Below are positions 48,718 to 62,550 of a stretch of DNA of 64,000 bases, piece after piece. Source of the stretch: Ktedonobacter racemifer DSM 44963 (GTDB taxonomy: Bacteria > Chloroflexota > Ktedonobacteria > Ktedonobacterales > Ktedonobacteraceae); NCBI RefSeq assembly GCF_000178855.1, contig NZ_ADVG01000002.1, positions 248,001 to 312,000 of the forward strand, written 5' to 3'. Both the position numbers and the translations under genes were made by a program. Under the pieces are notes generated by a model. The model saw only the letters and a list, made by a program, of their open reading frames with translations, had not been told where the DNA came from and did no database searches. Positions within the stretch are counted from its first letter, which is position 1. Each line of letters opens with the position of its first letter.

Positions 48718-49428
48718 CTAGAAAGACATTTTCTCCTCAAGAATTTGCATGAGAAGTGCTTGTATGTGTTCAGATTCCCAACTCGGTAAAGTGAGCACGG
48801 GAAAGGGAACAGTATGAAGCGGAAGAGTATTCAGGGGAACACCAAAGGCAACGAGCGTCAGACGTAAAGGATATTCTGCGAGAATAGGCCACTTCTCGAC
48901 AGTGCGAGGCCAGGCACTGATCAATTTACTCGCATTGTCATCAATAAGAATAACCGGTTCATTGGTCGCTTTGGTGTTCGCATATGATGCCATATATTTA
49001 ACATAGAAATTCTTGCAAGAAACAATTTCTCGTTCGGGGGGAAAGTTGTGTTGGGCGAACCACGCGTGCGTTGTGTCCTGCATGGTGAGATCGCGTGAGG
49101 TATAGTAAGCAACTTTCCCATACTGCATGAGAGTATACACCCCATTGGCTGCACCGGAAATAGGATGCAGTCCAGCAAGAACCTCGAGAGATGTTTTAGC
49201 CTGTATGTAAGCTTCTTGAAAGCAACTTTCATTGTTTAGGGAAGCGCTGCGGTAGGCGATAACTTCAGGAAGTTGGCAGAACTCCCAAAAACTCCCTATG
49301 GATGAGAGAACCTCTGGCGAAAAGGAGAGATGGAGAGATTGGCTGATAAAGGTGGCGTAAGCGCTACGATCTATCGCAACGGTTCTATCAATGTCTACAG
49401 CAAAAAGCATCTCTACCTCATATTTCAT
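48718..49428 (-). CDS. HAD-superfamily hydrolase
   Basis: The 236-residue protein begins with the HAD nucleophile motif (MLFAVDIDRTVAI, DxDxT), has motif II-like YYTSRDL, and an acidic motif IV (PVILIDDNASKLISAWP). This is a small phosphohydrolase with a helical cap. It converges with the APH gene, so the two have separate transcripts. Substrate unknown. Confidence 0.8.
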   Translation of the reverse strand: MKYEVEMLFAVDIDRTVAIDRSAYATFISQSLHLSFSPEVLSSIGSFWEFCQLPEVIAYRSASLNNESCFQEAYIQAKTSLEVLAGLHPISGAANGVYTLMQYGKVAYYTSRDLTMQDTTHAWFAQHNFPPEREIVSCKNFYVKYMASYANTKATNEPVILIDDNASKLISAWPRTVEKWPILAEYPLRLTLVAFGVPLNTLPLHTVPFPVLTLPSWESEHIQALLMQILEEKMSF

Positions 49429-50888: not shown

Positions 50889-52187
50889 TCAAGAAAGAAG
50901 AGACGTATCCATAAGGCCGGGTAACAAGAACTCTCGACCATTTCGGCTGATTGTCATAGCTGTTTCGTTGAGTGAGAGGACATACTCTTCCACCTGTGGA
51001 TCGCCCAGGTCGTGATAAGTTTGGAGACAGGACTGGATGGCACTTGCTATGGGCTCTGCTTGCCCATAACAGGTAAGACAGCCTTTTTGAACACAGACGA
51101 TGGTTTCGTGTTGCGGCTGCGAAATCAGGTAGAGGGCATAGGGTTGTTCCTGCTCAGGAGAAGGGCGAAAGTAGGCTTTTGTGAGCGTGGGGCAAAAACA
51201 ATGGAGCAGAACGGCAAAGCTGTTTGATTGTTTTAAGAGCGCTTCAACATCCTCCTCAAGCTGAAGCGTTTTCTTGGGTAAGCTCGACAACTCTTTCCAA
51301 TGAAATCTGGGGACAAGAGGACTACTATTGGGGCCAGTGAGTCGCATATAACCAGCTCGAATGGGAAGGAACGTCCCAACACCGGTATTTCCAACCTTCT
51401 TAATACGCACAAAGATACTCGCCAGGGGAAGGAGCACATTGGTGATCAGGATACCCCCCTCTCGAAGTTGCGGAAGCCAAAACGGAGGAATGGCCGTCAC
51501 GCCACACGTTGCTAACAACCGATCATAGGGCGCATACGGTGCGTATCCCTCATATCCATCGGCAGCAAATGTCTCTACATTGTTGATCCCTATGTGTCGG
51601 AGCCGATCTGCCGCGCGCAGCACCAGATCCTCAGCGATATCAACGCTGACCACTGTCCCCAATGGTTCCACCATATGGGCCATAAGACCTGCGTTATACC
51701 CCGTTCCTGACCCGATTTCTAGAACGCGTTGCCCTGGGGCAAGTGCGAGTGCTTCCAGTTGAGCGGCCATAATTGAGGGTTGTGAGCTCGAACTGCTTGA
51801 CATCTTGCGTTCATTGATTCTGGTTACCAAATAATCGTCCTGATAGAGTTCTTCGAGAGTAGGGTGAAGGATCACATCCCAGTCTAACGTATTGCTGCGT
51901 CGCTGATAGTACTGGTCTACAAAGGCTTCACGAGGAATGGTCAGAAAGGCATCGCGAACACGTGCGGAAAGGTGATATCCAAGTGAAACCTCGATGGTTT
52001 CCACAAGCTGCTGGCGATATTGTGCTGTTTGGGACTGTCTCATTAGCTGGGTTATGCTCCTTTCTCGGCTCTTGTGAGAGATGATAGACAGGACGCCGGT
52101 GACTACAGACGTAATACATTTTTTCAGGAACGAGATACATACTCCTATAAGGCGTGCATACCCTCTGTGTTTTTTGTTTGTTGACAC
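50889..52187 (-). CDS. PIMT-family protein methyltransferase, of the RiPP-associated long type
   Basis: The methyltransferase core (about residues 60-265) matches protein-L-isoaspartate O-methyltransferase: SSSSSQPSIMAAQLEALALA, motif I VLEIGSGTGYNAGLMAHMVE, VVSVDIAEDLV and the post-I loop PYDRLLATCGVTAIPPFW. A C-terminal extension of about 170 residues has no repair-type counterpart and is of the kind seen in methyltransferases of modified-peptide clusters. The start is uncertain: GTG 52187 or ATG 52043. It is a paralogue of the gene at 60446. No precursor peptide is evident beside it. Confidence 0.8.
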   Translation of the reverse strand: MSTNKKHRGYARLIGVCISFLKKCITSVVTGVLSIISHKSRERSITQLMRQSQTAQYRQQLVETIEVSLGYHLSARVRDAFLTIPREAFVDQYYQRRSNTLDWDVILHPTLEELYQDDYLVTRINERKMSSSSSSQPSIMAAQLEALALAPGQRVLEIGSGTGYNAGLMAHMVEPLGTVVSVDIAEDLVLRAADRLRHIGINNVETFAADGYEGYAPYAPYDRLLATCGVTAIPPFWLPQLREGGILITNVLLPLASIFVRIKKVGNTGVGTFLPIRAGYMRLTGPNSSPLVPRFHWKELSSLPKKTLQLEEDVEALLKQSNSFAVLLHCFCPTLTKAYFRPSPEQEQPYALYLISQPQHETIVCVQKGCLTCYGQAEPIASAIQSCLQTYHDLGDPQVEEYVLSLNETAMTISRNGREFLLPGLMDTSLLS

Positions 52188-56041: not shown

Positions 56042-56070
56042 TTGATATCACTTTAATAGAAAAATATGAT
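56042..56070 (+). promoter_or_regulatory. Promoter of the graspetide precursor gene
   Basis: TTGATA (56042-56047), a 17-bp spacer, and TATGAT (56065-56070). The start would be near 56077, about 40 nt before the precursor ATG. A GGGAGG-loop-CCTCCC hairpin (55958-55978) after dnaE separates it from dnaE transcription. Confidence 0.8.
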
Positions 56071-56117
56071 ATACTAAGCCCAGTAGTAGATTCTTCTATT
56101 TACAAGGGGTGATTTCT

Positions 56118-56348
56118 ATGGTTCAACACACACAAGCTTTCCAAGAAAGAGAAGCGTTATTAGAACCCTTTGGTCTGCACTTTCGTCAAGTACTCCCATT
56201 ACCCACACAACCACAGATGGCTCAGACGACGATGGAACCTGAAATTACGACAGGTGACGGGAATGATCCAGACAAAATTGATACTGATTGGATTCCTGAT
56301 GAGGACGAGGACAAAGATGATGACAAGGATGACAGGATAGGGCTTTAG
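56118..56348 (+). CDS. Graspetide (ATP-grasp-modified RiPP) precursor peptide
   Basis: The ATG at 56118 lies 6-9 nt after AAGGGGTG and gives 76 residues. The leader has LLEPFGLHFRQVLPLP (about 14-29), the PFxLRF-plus-PLP type motif used by ATP-grasp maturases. The rest is a Thr/Asp/Glu-rich core (TTMEPEITTGDGNDPDKIDT and an acidic tail), supplying hydroxyl donors and carboxyl acceptors for ester links; D47-G48 is a natural aspartimide site. The last codons (IGL-stop) coincide with the end hairpin of the adjacent TnpB element, so the native C terminus may have been changed. Maturase and methyltransferase genes follow after the insertion. Confidence 0.8.
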   Translation: MVQHTQAFQEREALLEPFGLHFRQVLPLPTQPQMAQTTMEPEITTGDGNDPDKIDTDWIPDEDEDKDDDKDDRIGL

Positions 56349-56508
56349 CCCGCCGCAAGCCACGGTTCTTTCGACCGTGGTGAGGCGTGTTATTGGGCTT
56401 GAGCCCTTATCAAACCTGGTACTCATAGAACACATGTTTGACAATTTCACATCAGCAGAGTATGCTCTACGAGAGATACCATCTATTTTGTGAGAGGAGG
56501 TCCTGAAA

Positions 56509-56680
56509 ATGGCAAAAGCCACGAAAACCATCAGGCAGGCGTTGCACTATCCGCCGCAGTATGCTGCCTACTTCGCGGCAAATCAGGCCCTCTTCAATCG
56601 TGTCGTGGCCTTTTATTTCGACTGTATTCAGGCGCACGAGGGTCTCCTTTCACTCAAAAACAAGCAGGCCCTCACGGCCC
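56509..56680 (+). pseudogene. tnpB: TnpB RNA-guided nuclease, N-terminal piece
   Basis: ATG 56509 follows GAGGAGGTC. The 57 codons (MAKATKTIRQALHYPPQYAA, then FNRVVAFYFDCIQAHEGLL) form the start of a TnpB protein and run into an IS at 56681. Joined across the 11-bp duplication they continue NKQALTA|LEKLTH into the second piece at 57945, a 510-residue protein. Confidence 0.88.
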
Positions 56681-57933
56681 CTCTCTCCCTGACACATTTT
56701 AGCTAGAGAGGAAGCGAGCAGAAAAAGAGACCGTCCAAAGAGAAGAAAGCAAAAATCATTCTCGGAGGAACGGCCTCAATGGATGCATCCGCTGTATTAT
56801 GGGAACGATGGAGCGCTCAAGTCAAGGAGTTGTTTCCAAAGATCCATGGGCATCAAAAGAAAACGCTTGCCTTGTTTGTCATCGGCATCGTGTTCACAGG
56901 AAATGCTGTGCTGCAACGAGTGGCCGAAGGTATCAGTTTGCATGGTATCGATCCAGCGAAGATGACCAGCATCGAACGGAGGCTTGCCCGTTTTCTCGCC
57001 AATGATCGGGTCGTGGTCACGAACGTCTGGGACGATTTTTTATCGCAGGTATTGGTATTCTGGCGCGGGAAGTCGCTGCGGTTCGTGCTGGATTGCACGC
57101 CATTTCGCGACGATGCAACCATCGTCTATCTGGGGCTGCTCGTGCATTCACGGGTCTTGCCCGTCGCATGGGCAGTGATGCCAGCTCAAGAGAAATGGGA
57201 AGAGAAACAATGGAGCATTGTGGCACGGCTGCTGGATCGCACCATCCTGCATCTGACCGGGACGGATTGCACCTTGCTCGCGGATCGAGGCTTGGCAGGT
57301 TTCCCATTGGTCAAGCTCTGTCGCGATCGCAAGTGGCACTATCTGTTACGTGTCTCGAAAGAACATACCTGTCAGCGCAAGATGGGCGACGCTTGGAGTT
57401 CCTGGTCCCGTTTTGATGCATTTGTGCACAAAAGGGGACAGCAATGGTATGGATGGGCAAAAGTCTGGAAAGAGGACACGATCGAAACCTACGTGAGTGC
57501 CTGTTGGATGCCCGATTGCGAGGAAGGCTGGATCCTGATTTCCGACCTGAAAGCCGGCAAACGGCGGGTGAACGAGTATGCATTACGCATGCGTGTTGAG
57601 TCAACCTTTCAGGACAGCAAACGTCGCGGCTGGACATTGGAAGCCAGTTTGGTCAAGGAAGAAGCTCGCCTCAATCGTTTGCTGCTGGCGCTTTTTCTGG
57701 CGATGTGGTGGGTCAGTCATTTGGCTGCCTCGTGCATGCATCATGGCAAACGAGATCGTTTTGATCGTACTGATCGGCGTGACAAAGGCATCTTTCGTCT
57801 CGGACGCCTCTGGCTGTTGGATATTCTGCGTCGAACAAGCAACCCAGCTGACCTGGTTCACTGCCTCCCTTTCCGCAAACATGCTTCTGGATGGCGCTTT
57901 TCGCTACGTTTTTAAAATGTGTCAGGGAGAGAG
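56681..57933 (+). mobile_element. IS4-type insertion sequence inside tnpB
   Basis: The 1253-bp element has 21-bp perfect terminal inverted repeats (CTCTCTCCCTGACACATTTTA at 56681-56701; its complement at 57913-57933). An 11-bp target duplication, CCTCACGGCCC, lies at 56670-56680 and 57934-57944. Intact repeats and duplication point to a recent insertion. Confidence 0.95.
56779..57915 (+). CDS. IS4-family DDE transposase
   Basis: The 378-residue protein has the DDE catalytic triad of IS4 elements: the first Asp in RFVLDCTPFRDD, the second in TLLADRGLAGFPLV, and the Glu in YALRMRVESTFQDSKRRGW (Y...R...E...K signature). The basic C terminus (HHGKRDRFDRTDRRDKGIFR) binds DNA. It is intact and, with the perfect terminal repeats, the IS is probably still able to move. 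Confidence 0.93.
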   Translation: MDASAVLWERWSAQVKELFPKIHGHQKKTLALFVIGIVFTGNAVLQRVAEGISLHGIDPAKMTSIERRLARFLANDRVVVTNVWDDFLSQVLVFWRGKSLRFVLDCTPFRDDATIVYLGLLVHSRVLPVAWAVMPAQEKWEEKQWSIVARLLDRTILHLTGTDCTLLADRGLAGFPLVKLCRDRKWHYLLRVSKEHTCQRKMGDAWSSWSRFDAFVHKRGQQWYGWAKVWKEDTIETYVSACWMPDCEEGWILISDLKAGKRRVNEYALRMRVESTFQDSKRRGWTLEASLVKEEARLNRLLLALFLAMWWVSHLAASCMHHGKRDRFDRTDRRDKGIFRLGRLWLLDILRRTSNPADLVHCLPFRKHASGWRFSLRF

Positions 57934-57944
57934 CCTCACGGCCC

Positions 57945-59305
57945 TGGAGAAACTCACGCATGCAACGGAGTCTAGCCCCCATCCGATCATGCCGCTCACC
58001 GATCTCGCGCCAGATATCCCGGCGATGTTCAGACGCGCCGCCATCAATGCGGCCCTTGGTTCGGCCCGCGCATTTTTCTCCTCCCTCAAAACATGGCGAG
58101 CACGGAAGCAGAAACACGAAGCCAAACACACGAAAAAGCGCAAGAAGAGGCCGTTTCGGGAGCGGCCACCAGTCCCACCCCGATCATGGAACAAGTCGGT
58201 TCCCTTCTACGCAAGCCTTTGGCATGAGCGTCATACGCATGGTATCGTGCTCAAGGTCTGGACCGGCTCGTGCTGGTCCTGGCTCAAAGTCCACATCCTC
58301 GGTCGCGAGCTCCCCGATGGGTACGCGATGGGCAGTCCACAGCTTGTTCGCAAGGGGGATCGCTGGTGGCTGCATACTCCCATTGAGAAGACCTTCGAGA
58401 CTCCCGCAAAGAGCGGAGAGCAACTCACCACCGCCCAGACACGTCTCTGTGCGGTGGATCTCAATCTCGACAAGCATCTCGCTGTGTGCAGTGTCCAGAC
58501 AGTTGACGGCACCATCCTGGCTACGTCCTTCATCGGAAATGGCACAGCGGTATCGGGCTGTAGGAAACAACTGCTTGGACGCATTGCACGCAACCGATCA
58601 CAGACTGGTCTCATCGCCGAGAACGAACAGGACAATGCCGACCTCTGGGCGAAGATCAGGCACGTGGACGAGCAGATCGCGCATCTGGTGAGCGCTCGCA
58701 TTGTCCAGTTCGCCAGCGAGCACAAGACGAGCATCCTGGTTTTTGAACATCTGGGCAACCTGCAACCGGAGAAGGGCACGTATTCGCGCCGGAGCAATAG
58801 CAAACGCGCCTACTGGATGAAGGGGCGCATGTTCCGCTACGCAACGTACAAAGCCTGGCATGCAGGCGGCATCATCACCTGCCGTGTGAATCCGCGCAAT
58901 ACGAGCAGAGAATGCCATCGCTGTCACGCCGCTGTCATTCGCTATAACCAGGGACACCCTGTGGAAGGCTACACCTCCGGTGCCGCACTCTGTCTGTGCC
59001 CACAATGCCAGATGCGCGATCATGCCGACCGCAATGCCAGTATCCGTGTCGGACAGCGCTTGATCGAGCGGACGCAAGAACCGTTGAAGGAAAAGCCTCA
59101 TGCTCGTTCGCAACGTGCGAAGAGGGAGTCGAAAGACTCAGGTGTTGGGATCTCCCAGGATGCCAAACGCCAGATGGGACCATCCATCCCTGCGGCCAGG
59201 CGTGGAGATCATGCCAACGGGCATGGCACCGCCCAGGGGAGAAGGCGCCGGATGGGCGCGTCTTTCCCAGATATTGCGTCCCAACTACGGGTTCACTTTG
59301 AGTAG
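57945..59305 (+). pseudogene. tnpB: TnpB RNA-guided nuclease, C-terminal piece
   Basis: This piece holds the RuvC nuclease: first Asp in LCAVDLNLDKHLAV (about residue 229 of the joined protein), Glu in ILVFEHLGNLQP and last Asp in MRDHADRNASIRVG. The zinc finger (ECHRCHAAV, CLCPQCQ) is complete. The C-terminal tail is long and basic. All catalytic residues survive, so precise loss of the IS would restore an active-looking protein; the apparent frame from 57578 starts in IS sequence. Confidence 0.9.
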
Positions 59306-59392
59306 TGGCTACGCCACCTGTCTCACGAACCCGACTACGGCACAGTGTCAGAAGCTGCTCGGCTTTAGCCGATGCGGAGTGTCACAAGAAAG
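59306..59392 (+). ncRNA. Right end of the TnpB element, candidate omega-RNA 3' part
   Basis: TnpB guide RNAs span the end of tnpB and the right transposon end. This segment has the hairpin CGGCTTTAGCCG and a paired GTGTCAG/AGTGTCAC neighbourhood. No guide boundary can be placed from sequence alone. Confidence 0.4.
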
Positions 59393-59436
59393 AGATGTTT
59401 GTTCTAACACAGCAGAAAAGCATAAAAGAGTAACTA

Positions 59437-60426
59437 ATGAAACCTCTTGTTGGCATCTATTCACGTCCAACCGATGACCATTTGGAACGCGTCGTCAGTG
59501 AACTTCAAAGACGGCGCATCCCCTGGTTACGTTTCGATACTGCCGACTTTCCTCAATTTCTTCGAGTTGCTGCTCGACTCGATAGAAATGAGGATGGTTG
59601 GCAAGGAACATTTCTTTTGGGAGACTCTCATCATCACCTGGAGGAATTTTGTAGTATCTGGTATCGTCGACCGACCAAAACATACGCTTTCCCCGCAATG
59701 TCCGAAACGGGATATGAGTATGCGAGAGCCGAGGCTCGCAAAGGATTTGGCGGCTTATTGCAGAGCCTTTCTTGTTTGTGGGTCAGCCTTCCAGACGCAA
59801 TCGCAGCAGCCGAATGCAAGCCTAAGCAGCTTGAATATGCGCGGCAGCTCGGTTGGAGTATTCCCAAAACCCTTATTACTAATGATCCACAAGCTGTACT
59901 TTGTTTTTTTGACGAGTGCCAGGGAGAAGTTATTTATAAACCGTTTAACCAGGGTATCCCTCGGCCAAAGAAAGGGGAACCATGGCGTGGTGCAATCTAC
60001 ACAACCAAAATGACGCGATCAGCATTACAAGAACATGCTCCATCTATTACATCCACGGCCACGCTCTTTCAACAATACATCCCAAAAGCGTTTGAATTGC
60101 GAATTAACGTGATAGGATCACGTGTATTCGCTGCTGAAATTCATTCTCAGCAGAGCGAGCGAGCAAAAATTGACTTCCGCATGGGATATGAGGAGTTATC
60201 GTATCGTATTCATCAGTTACCCCGAGAGATTGAAGAGCATAGCCTCGCACTAGTACATCGATTTGACTTAGAATTTTCAGCCATTGATGTAATCGTGACT
60301 CCTCAAAACGAGTATGTATTTTTGGAGCTCAACCCCTATGGACAATGGGGTTGGATTGAGAATCATACAGGTTTACCTCTTACAGAAGCGCTGGTAGACT
60401 TGTTAGTAACAGGGAAATCGTCATAG
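59437..60426 (+). CDS. tgmB: ATP-grasp ribosomal peptide maturase (graspetide synthetase)
   Basis: The 329-residue protein is of the MvdD/TgmB type: an N-terminal VGIYSRPTDDHLERVVSELQ, the SIWYRRPTKTYAFP segment typical of these maturases, and the ATP-grasp core with VIYKPFNQ (Lys), LFQQYIPKAFELRINVIGSR and the metal site VFLELNPYGQWGWIEN (ExN). Such enzymes phosphorylate Asp/Glu side chains and join them to Ser/Thr (ester) or Lys (amide) of the precursor, making macrocycles. The precursor is the gene at 56118. The methyltransferase gene starts 19 bp after the stop. Confidence 0.93.
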   Translation: MKPLVGIYSRPTDDHLERVVSELQRRRIPWLRFDTADFPQFLRVAARLDRNEDGWQGTFLLGDSHHHLEEFCSIWYRRPTKTYAFPAMSETGYEYARAEARKGFGGLLQSLSCLWVSLPDAIAAAECKPKQLEYARQLGWSIPKTLITNDPQAVLCFFDECQGEVIYKPFNQGIPRPKKGEPWRGAIYTTKMTRSALQEHAPSITSTATLFQQYIPKAFELRINVIGSRVFAAEIHSQQSERAKIDFRMGYEELSYRIHQLPREIEEHSLALVHRFDLEFSAIDVIVTPQNEYVFLELNPYGQWGWIENHTGLPLTEALVDLLVTGKSS

Positions 60427-60445
60427 AGAGAAAAAAGAGCAGTAT

Positions 60446-61597
60446 ATGGATACAATAACTTTTCGCGAACATCAACAACGGCTTGTTTCCAACATCCAAG
60501 CCATTCAGGATCTTTCGCCATCCGTCGCAGAAGCCTTTTTAACGGTTCCTCGCCATCCCTTTCTCTCTCATTATTATGTGCATCGTGCCGGAACCCGCGA
60601 ATGGACGCGCTATGAACGCAAGGAGTCGCGAGAGTGGTATGAACACATATACAAAGATCAGCCATTAGTAACACGCGTCGATGAATATGGGCGCACCTTA
60701 AGTTCGAGTTCCCAACCGAGTGTGATGGCTCGTATGCTTGATGTATTGGATGTTCAAGCAGGTATGAAGGTATTAGAAGTTGGAACCGGAACAGGGTACA
60801 ACGCAGCGCTTCTTGCTCAACTCACCAAAGATCCTCGATTCATAACAACCATTGATATAGATAGCACTGCTCTGGAAGAAGCAAGGCAAGCTCTCAAAGA
60901 AGTAGGCAACGAAGATGGAATGACAATTGCTACTGGCGATGGGAGTGCTGGCTATCACCAAAATGCCCCTTACGACCGTATCGTTGTCACGGCAAGCTCC
61001 CCTCATGTGCCTCTCGCGTGGATGCAACAATTGAAGCCTCAAGGGATTCTTGTTTGCGTTTTGCAGCCGCGATATGCACCTCTCGGAGGTATACTCAAAG
61101 CCCAGAAACAAGAAGAGGGGCTCAAGGGACAGATTGTAGGCCCCGCCTCCTTTATGGTATTGCGCGACGAACACTATGCTAAACGGAACATTCAGATCGA
61201 TATGCGAGCATCGTGCATTACCTCGTTTCCTCACTCTCCCTCGCTCTTCCCACTCAATCTGTTGCGAGAAAATCATCATTTCTCTTTTTTTCTTTATAAA
61301 CGTATTCCTGATCTTCACACGTTTCAACGACCAAAAGAGCAAGAAATGATTTTCTACCAATACTCTTCCCCTCAGGGATATCTTGTCTTCAATCAACGAA
61401 CGCACCAGGTCTCACTGTATGGCATACGTTCATGTGCCTACTCAATTTGGAACCAACTGGTAAGTACGTATAGTTTGTGGCTCCATTGTGGAACGCCTTC
61501 GATTACACAGTATCACTTCGAAATGGAGATGGTCGACGGGAAGCAATATCTTTCTTTGATAACTTCATCTGGTAACATATGGCCCTTTGAGGAGTAA
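60446..61597 (+). CDS. tgmC: PIMT-type methyltransferase of the graspetide cluster
   Basis: The 383-residue protein is a protein-L-isoaspartate methyltransferase relative with LSSSSQPSVMARMLDVLDV, motif I MKVLEVGTGTGYNAALLAQL, ITTIDIDSTALEEARQAL and PYDRIVVTASSPHVPLAWMQ. A C-terminal extension of about 170 residues marks the RiPP-cluster type rather than the repair enzyme. Known members methylate an Asp of the cross-linked peptide, which then closes to an aspartimide. Here D47-G48 of the precursor is the obvious target. It is co-transcribed with the ATP-grasp gene. Confidence 0.9.
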   Translation: MDTITFREHQQRLVSNIQAIQDLSPSVAEAFLTVPRHPFLSHYYVHRAGTREWTRYERKESREWYEHIYKDQPLVTRVDEYGRTLSSSSQPSVMARMLDVLDVQAGMKVLEVGTGTGYNAALLAQLTKDPRFITTIDIDSTALEEARQALKEVGNEDGMTIATGDGSAGYHQNAPYDRIVVTASSPHVPLAWMQQLKPQGILVCVLQPRYAPLGGILKAQKQEEGLKGQIVGPASFMVLRDEHYAKRNIQIDMRASCITSFPHSPSLFPLNLLRENHHFSFFLYKRIPDLHTFQRPKEQEMIFYQYSSPQGYLVFNQRTHQVSLYGIRSCAYSIWNQLVSTYSLWLHCGTPSITQYHFEMEMVDGKQYLSLITSSGNIWPFEE

Positions 61598-61683
61598 AAA
61601 CTCTATGGTATTTACGCCAGAAATACTCTACCCATAGTATGTGAAAGCCTCAAAAAGAAGACATTCTAGACGGCAGAGGCAAT

Positions 61684-62550
61684 ATGGTTAAACAATGCCT
61701 AAGGAACATCCTTGGGAATCAATTTGTGATTGAGAGTGCCAATCACAAGAGAGCGCAACTCACCCAGAGTGAAGATTATATTTTCATCGATCAGGACACG
61801 GGGCTCCTGGGTGTTTTTGATTCGGTCGGTGGACGTGATAAGGGACAATTAGTATCTCGCCTTGCTGGAAGAACAATTGCAGCGTCCTGGAAAAATCTTG
61901 CGACAACGAACCATCAGAAGTCACTAGCGCAGATTGAAATACACTTGCGAGCCGTATTGCAGCAGGCAGATACGGTTATCGCTGCGCTCCACCTTCCATC
62001 AGGGGAAAAACGGCCAGCTACCACTGCAACCGTTGGAGTTCTTTCACTTCAAAACGATGAAGTCTATATGACCATTGCCAACGTTGGGGACAGTCGCGCC
62101 TATCTTCTGAGATCAGGGAAAATTCAACGTTTGACGGAAGATAATGGGTATTTTCCTTGGGCTATTCGACGTGGGATTCTGACAAAGGAGGAGAGTTGGC
62201 GTATCGAGCAAGTTGCACGTGATGGCGATCTGTCATTACAAGATATGACGCACTTTCGCCGAAGAAATAAAATTACCTGTGCGGTCGGTTGGGCAGATTT
62301 CCCTCCCATTCAGCCATATTCTCTTGCTCTTACTCCTGGCGATAGGATCGTGATATGTACCGATGGTCTCCATGACAATCTCACCGATGAAGAAATTGCA
62401 GAAGTGCTCCAAGGGCCACCAGAGCACAGTGCGCAACGCCTTATAAGCGCTGCATATCACCGTTCACAGCAACCTCATATTCGTGCAAAGGAAGATGACA
62501 TCAGCGCGATTGTTGCTTGGTATATGTTCTCCCAAGCTTATAAGATCTAG
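61684..62550 (+). CDS. PP2C-family protein phosphatase
   Basis: The 288-residue protein shows LLGVFDSVGGRDKGQLVSRL (first metal Asp; GGHG is varied to GGRD), ATTATVGVLSLQNDEVYMTI, ANVGDSRAYLLRSGKI, RIVICTDGLHDNLTDEEIAE and EDDISAIVAWY at the end. These are the conserved PP2C acidic residues, so a Mn/Mg-dependent Ser/Thr phosphatase is expected. It lies 86 bp after the methyltransferase and may be the last gene of the cluster. Its relation to the peptide is not known. Confidence 0.85.
   Translation: MVKQCLRNILGNQFVIESANHKRAQLTQSEDYIFIDQDTGLLGVFDSVGGRDKGQLVSRLAGRTIAASWKNLATTNHQKSLAQIEIHLRAVLQQADTVIAALHLPSGEKRPATTATVGVLSLQNDEVYMTIANVGDSRAYLLRSGKIQRLTEDNGYFPWAIRRGILTKEESWRIEQVARDGDLSLQDMTHFRRRNKITCAVGWADFPPIQPYSLALTPGDRIVICTDGLHDNLTDEEIAEVLQGPPEHSAQRLISAAYHRSQQPHIRAKEDDISAIVAWYMFSQAYKI

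Follow-up and report, generated by a model that had tools for sequence, protein, structure and literature searches.

A transposon-split graspimiditide gene set in Ktedonobacter racemifer

Towards the end of a 64,000-nucleotide stretch of the genome of the soil bacterium Ktedonobacter racemifer (G000:C9:248001-312000, hereafter the window; the genome comprises 13,661,586 bases in 10 contigs), a small open reading frame is followed on the same strand by genes for an ATP-grasp ligase, a PIMT and a PP2C phosphatase. The initial annotation read these genes as a cluster for an ester/amide-crosslinked, aspartimide-bearing graspetide, which raises the question of what the locus encodes and whether its parts still work together. 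Comparisons of ligase, PIMT and precursor support a graspetide cluster in this Chloroflexota genome. The genes do not form one contiguous operon, since the precursor is parted from the enzymes by two transposons, one nested in the other. With a TIGR04187-type ligase, an adjacent TIGR04188-type PIMT and a precursor consisting of a leader and a Thr/Asp stem around an Asp-Gly loop, the locus is very likely a transposon-split graspimiditide (group-13 graspetide) gene set that is probably weakly expressed or silent.

The ATP-grasp ORF (329 aa, 59437-60426, + strand) carries ELNPYGQWGWIE and is most similar to graspetide synthetases. TIGR04187 is its best NCBIfam model by a wide margin (294 bits, E 9e-88) and is covered completely, at a score under the curated cut-off of 350 bits. 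Pfam analysis detects the MvdD pre-ATP-grasp domain PF21068 above cut-off, and the closest solved structures are the microviridin ligases 5ig9, 7m4s and 5ig8 (best 5ig9, E 5e-42). The AIDVIV, ELRI and LELNP positions are kept in the alignment and, as judged from these sequence matches to solved ligases, the fold of the enzyme is settled. The annotated maturase is thus of the graspetide type, and its closest model is not that of a ligase unrelated to RiPP maturases. Located 20 nt further 3', the RiPP-associated PIMT (383 aa, 60446-61597, + strand; PCMT domain PF01135) has TIGR04188 as its best model, with 226 bits and an E of 8e-67 for residues 24-359 on model positions 13-355, again under the curated cut-off (380 bits). 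The gene was correctly recognized as a PIMT of the RiPP type; its long C-terminal extension, which had been singled out, is not unusual because TIGR04188 covers that part. The window ligase groups with that of G148, a relative from another genus of the same family (98), and the window PIMT with those of L037 and G148 (98). Since none of 400 Chloroflexota genomes exceeded the TIGR04188 cut-off, the curated NCBI cut-offs appear to be set for Actinomycetota.

In its present form the precursor gene (76 aa, 56118-56345, + strand) starts with the ATG at 56118 and combines the leader ..LEPFGLHFR.. with the core TTMEPEITTGDGNDPDKIDTDWIPDEDEDKDDDKDD; this ORF and the Thr positions T37, T38, T44, T45 and T56 were found as first annotated. 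The promoter proposed 5' of it is present as a promoter-like TTGATA-17-TATGAT (56042-56070, + strand) with 10 of 12 matches. The consensus scan returned 6 such sites between 55900 and 59500 where 1.9 were expected, all of them consensus matches only. In G148, an orthologue of the precursor (tblastn E = 8e-15; ORF of 64-69 aa) lies directly 5' of the orthologous ATP-grasp gene and has the leader PFGLHFR and the core EPEITTGDGxDPDKxDxDWxPDEDE in common with the window precursor, so that a homologue does stand beside such genes in a related genome. The window core TTGDG..DTDWIPD and the leader PFGLHFR, kept in G148, also match Pseudonocardia. Because G148 and Pseudonocardia acaciae share the core, it is less isolated than the initial annotation held when it called it unlike known ones. 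A profile search built on three precursors matched G148 and a degraded, frameshifted copy in G132; a match in G116 was weak and contained a stop. The frameshifted copy (L140, G132:C35, 4291-4466) belongs to an apparently decaying cluster at a contig end. The window precursor has no match in NCBIfam or Pfam, and its region none in the plasmid collection. Of the family models proposed for checking, TIGR04187 and TIGR04188 are the best matches of the two enzymes, below their cut-offs, whereas TIGR04186 does not match the precursor at E 1, nor the G148 homologue at E 10; the Pseudonocardia acaciae precursor just attains the curated TIGR04186 cut-off (25.4 vs 25). The window precursor is genuine, and its conservation exceeds chance.

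Precursors encoded beside such ligases share a common core pattern. The motif [TS]xxD[GNS]..DxxxD is present in 15 of 17 of them compared with a mean of 0.7 and a maximum of 5 in shuffles, a descriptive contrast, as the pattern was picked after viewing the alignment and the 17 rows are related. A Thr/Ser-x3-Thr/Ser before the loop together with an Asp-x3-Asp after it occurs in 11 of the 17, which equals the spacing in fuscimiditide (T3, T7, D18, D22; PMC12291112). In the window and G148 precursors the outer Thr is located 6-8 residues before the inner Thr.

The gap between the precursor and the ATP-grasp gene is 3,052 bp long and consists of a TnpB element (56334-59385, + strand) that lies 3' of the target TGAC in the precursor's last codons. 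Its ends were set by comparison with other genomic copies, which share their ends after TGAC. The TnpB gene, the sharp common ends, the fixed 5' tetranucleotide and the lack of a target duplication identify the element as IS200/IS605-like. The K. racemifer genome holds roughly two dozen copies with >=86% identity; given 99-100% identity to the nearest ones, the insertion seems recent. An IS4-type element (56681-57933, + strand) in turn interrupts the TnpB frame, which scores 93.3 bits with NF040570 (guided_TnpB), just under the cut-off of 100; the Pfam match is Cas12f1-like_TNB. The nested element has 21-bp perfect terminal inverted repeats (56681-56701 and 57913-57933), is flanked by the 11-bp direct repeat CCTCACGGCCC and encodes a transposase (56779-57915) that matches NF033591 (transpos_IS4_2, E 8e-29) and the Pfam family DDE_Tnp_1. 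Mis-assembly of the insertion is unlikely because precursor and ligase adjoin in G148. The genome of K. racemifer SOSP1-21T has been reported with 601 transposase genes (PMC3236041).

The insertion altered the end of the precursor and left its conserved core untouched. Native precursor codons extend from 56118 to 56333, with the insertion point after codon 72, and the last four residues (RIGL) and the stop codon are transposon sequence; consequently the 76-residue length and the exact end are not native, and of the precursor as annotated the ORF stands, with its length and tail changed by the transposon. On the other side of the element, the native right flank (59386-59436, + strand) holds the putative former 3' end of the precursor frame (KKEMFVLTQQKSIKE, stop) and the spacer before the ATP-grasp gene. 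When the flanks are joined, an 87-aa frame results that ends with KKEMFVLTQQKSIKE; its TAA stop is separated from the ATP-grasp ATG by 4 nt. It is plausible that this joined frame represents the native precursor, but an open stretch of 15 codons says little by itself, and the G148 precursor ends earlier.

In this class of peptides, ester bonds to Thr are closed by the ligase, which phosphorylates Asp side chains; methylation of the loop Asp by the PIMT follows and leads to an aspartimide (PMC12291112, PMC13001092). For the window we infer a corresponding route. Based on family knowledge, the ATP-grasp enzyme would bind the PFGLHFR leader, phosphorylate core Asp side chains and form ester links to Thr, yielding a stem-loop; the PIMT would methylate D47 of the loop pair D47-G48, and the methylated Asp would collapse to the aspartimide. 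The predicted inner link joins T44 or T45 to D55 or D57 and the predicted outer link T38 to D61 or D63, positions that are uncertain because the Thr-x3-Thr stem of 11 of 17 relatives and of fuscimiditide is missing from the window core. The TnpB element, apparently a recent arrival, entered the precursor after TGAC, within its final codons, and the IS4-type element later entered the TnpB element. The conserved core of the precursor survived this, its original C-terminus did not, and the enzyme genes were severed from the precursor promoter and from close translational coupling. Promoter and precursor now lie 3 kb away from the enzyme genes. The cluster may therefore be silent, and the gene arrangement makes polar silencing of the enzyme genes likely, with read-through or a transposon promoter serving these genes as the possible exception. 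Given how recent the insertion looks, the open frames are no proof that the genes function today.

Graspetide genes are found elsewhere in this genome and its family. Actinomycetota are reported to hold 99% of the group-13 graspetide clusters and Chloroflexi just a few (PMC13001092). Of 28 Ktedonobacteraceae sampled, 18 had a ligase match; apart from G352, the family loci examined in detail have a PIMT next to the ligase, and the precursors beside the ligases have a PF-type or related leader. In two soil MAGs (L034, L035), the precursors encoded next to ATP-grasp and PIMT genes are unusually long (136-166 aa) and contain PFGFHY and at least two DG motifs. K. racemifer itself has a second cluster (C6, L004 4730-17758) with a precursor, a split ATP-grasp gene and a PIMT. 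An 11-kb insertion, which bears large ORFs of 1183 and 942 aa, interrupts this ATP-grasp beyond roughly residue 170. Intact sister clusters were found in G358. The window also contains an orphan TIGR04188-type PIMT (432 aa from a putative start codon, 50889-52187, - strand), divergent from dnaE. G358 has a complete graspetide cluster 5' of dnaE, whose PIMT is 68% identical to the orphan, and at this position K. racemifer retains only the PIMT; the orphan occurs twice in G346, with 87% and 72% identity. It has about 40 extra N-terminal residues and no ATP-grasp nearby. Directly upstream of the second cluster, L004 18611-19000 encodes a protein with 78% identity to a 236-aa window protein (48718-49428, - strand) whose start, FAVDIDRT, resembles that of a HAD phosphatase.

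Other readings of the locus differ in which genes belong to it and in what the enzymes do. The PP2C phosphatase (288 aa, 61684-62550, + strand) had been proposed as an unusual partner in an intact, co-expressed cluster, and its ORF is indeed present, 87 nt downstream of the PIMT and on the same strand. The partnership does not hold, as no PP2C homologue occurs at about 20 related graspetide loci, and the sister genomes G346 (two loci) and G358 carry its orthologues 3' of dnaE without intervening graspetide genes. Synteny thus rules out the phosphatase as a cluster member and assigns it to the dnaE neighbourhood; with the gene set also split by two nested transposons, the intact version is highly improbable.

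Less far-fetched, though still unlikely, is that the links are amides rather than esters, or that the PIMT is an ordinary repair enzyme, so that a graspetide without aspartimide would result. The initial annotation had left the linkage as ester/amide, and the PIMT also matches the generic model PRK00312 with 138 bits. Its best model is nevertheless TIGR04188, which matches over the entire length, C-terminal part included. Among relatives whose ligase adjoins a PIMT, most preserve the loop Asp-Gly, and in the window core no Lys occupies a donor position N-terminal to the acceptors, where only T37, T38, T44 and T45 are found. The insertion that parts the window precursor from its enzymes, together with the intact precursor kept at the second locus, would also fit enzymes that still act on a precursor elsewhere, for example that of the second cluster, with the window precursor as a relic. 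We consider this very unlikely: the leader PFGLHFR is strongly unlike SSLGMQF of the second cluster, each leader type pairs with its own ligase clade, and the window core itself is undamaged. The transposon-split graspimiditide gene set is therefore the reading we retain.

Overall, the locus is a graspimiditide gene set of known type that is probably polar-disrupted, whose chemistry and expression we infer from its genes. Beyond the initial annotation, the notable points are the split by nested transposons, the removal of PP2C from the cluster and the wide spread in the family. Such clusters are common, widespread and under-annotated in the Ktedonobacteraceae, and the tested curated NCBI models miss them. 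In this transposon-rich genome, transposons are disabling graspetide clusters, with one precursor split, one ligase interrupted and one PIMT orphaned.

Among known systems, the microviridin ligases MdnC, MdnB, AMdnB and CdnC by sequence share the ATP-grasp fold family and the catalytic-site positions but act with other precursors, another leader motif and no PIMT. The G148 cluster (L078) has nearly the same core and the same gene order (ATP-grasp 51%, PIMT 39% identity), but lacks the insertion, and its precursor ends with ..EEEE, 52 nt before the ATP-grasp gene. In Pseudonocardia acaciae DSM 45401 (L036), LEPFGLTFR and TETDGKDPIAVDTDPFYD align gap-free with LEPFGLHFR and TTGDGNDPDKIDTDWIPD of the window, and the two precursors share LEPFGLxFR and TxxDGxDPxxxDTDxxxD; this cluster differs in its Actinomycetota host, its more distant enzymes (ATP-grasp 34%, PIMT 29% identity) and the lack of an acidic tail. 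Fuscimiditide (ThfA/ThfB/ThfM) and amycolimiditide resemble the window in combining a precursor with an ATP-grasp and a PIMT, in the PF-motif leader, and in Thr donors before and Asp acceptors after an Asp-Gly loop. Unlike them, the window set has a Chloroflexota host, model scores below the curated cut-offs, a transposon split, an outer Thr 6-8 rather than 4 residues before the inner one, and a long acidic tail. Tentatively, the window and G148 precursors might form a graspimiditide subgroup with an acidic tail and a wider, uneven stem, in which the outer Thr precedes the inner by 6-8 residues and the acceptors are spaced by 4 or 6, giving a ring pattern outside those of the four characterised graspimiditides.
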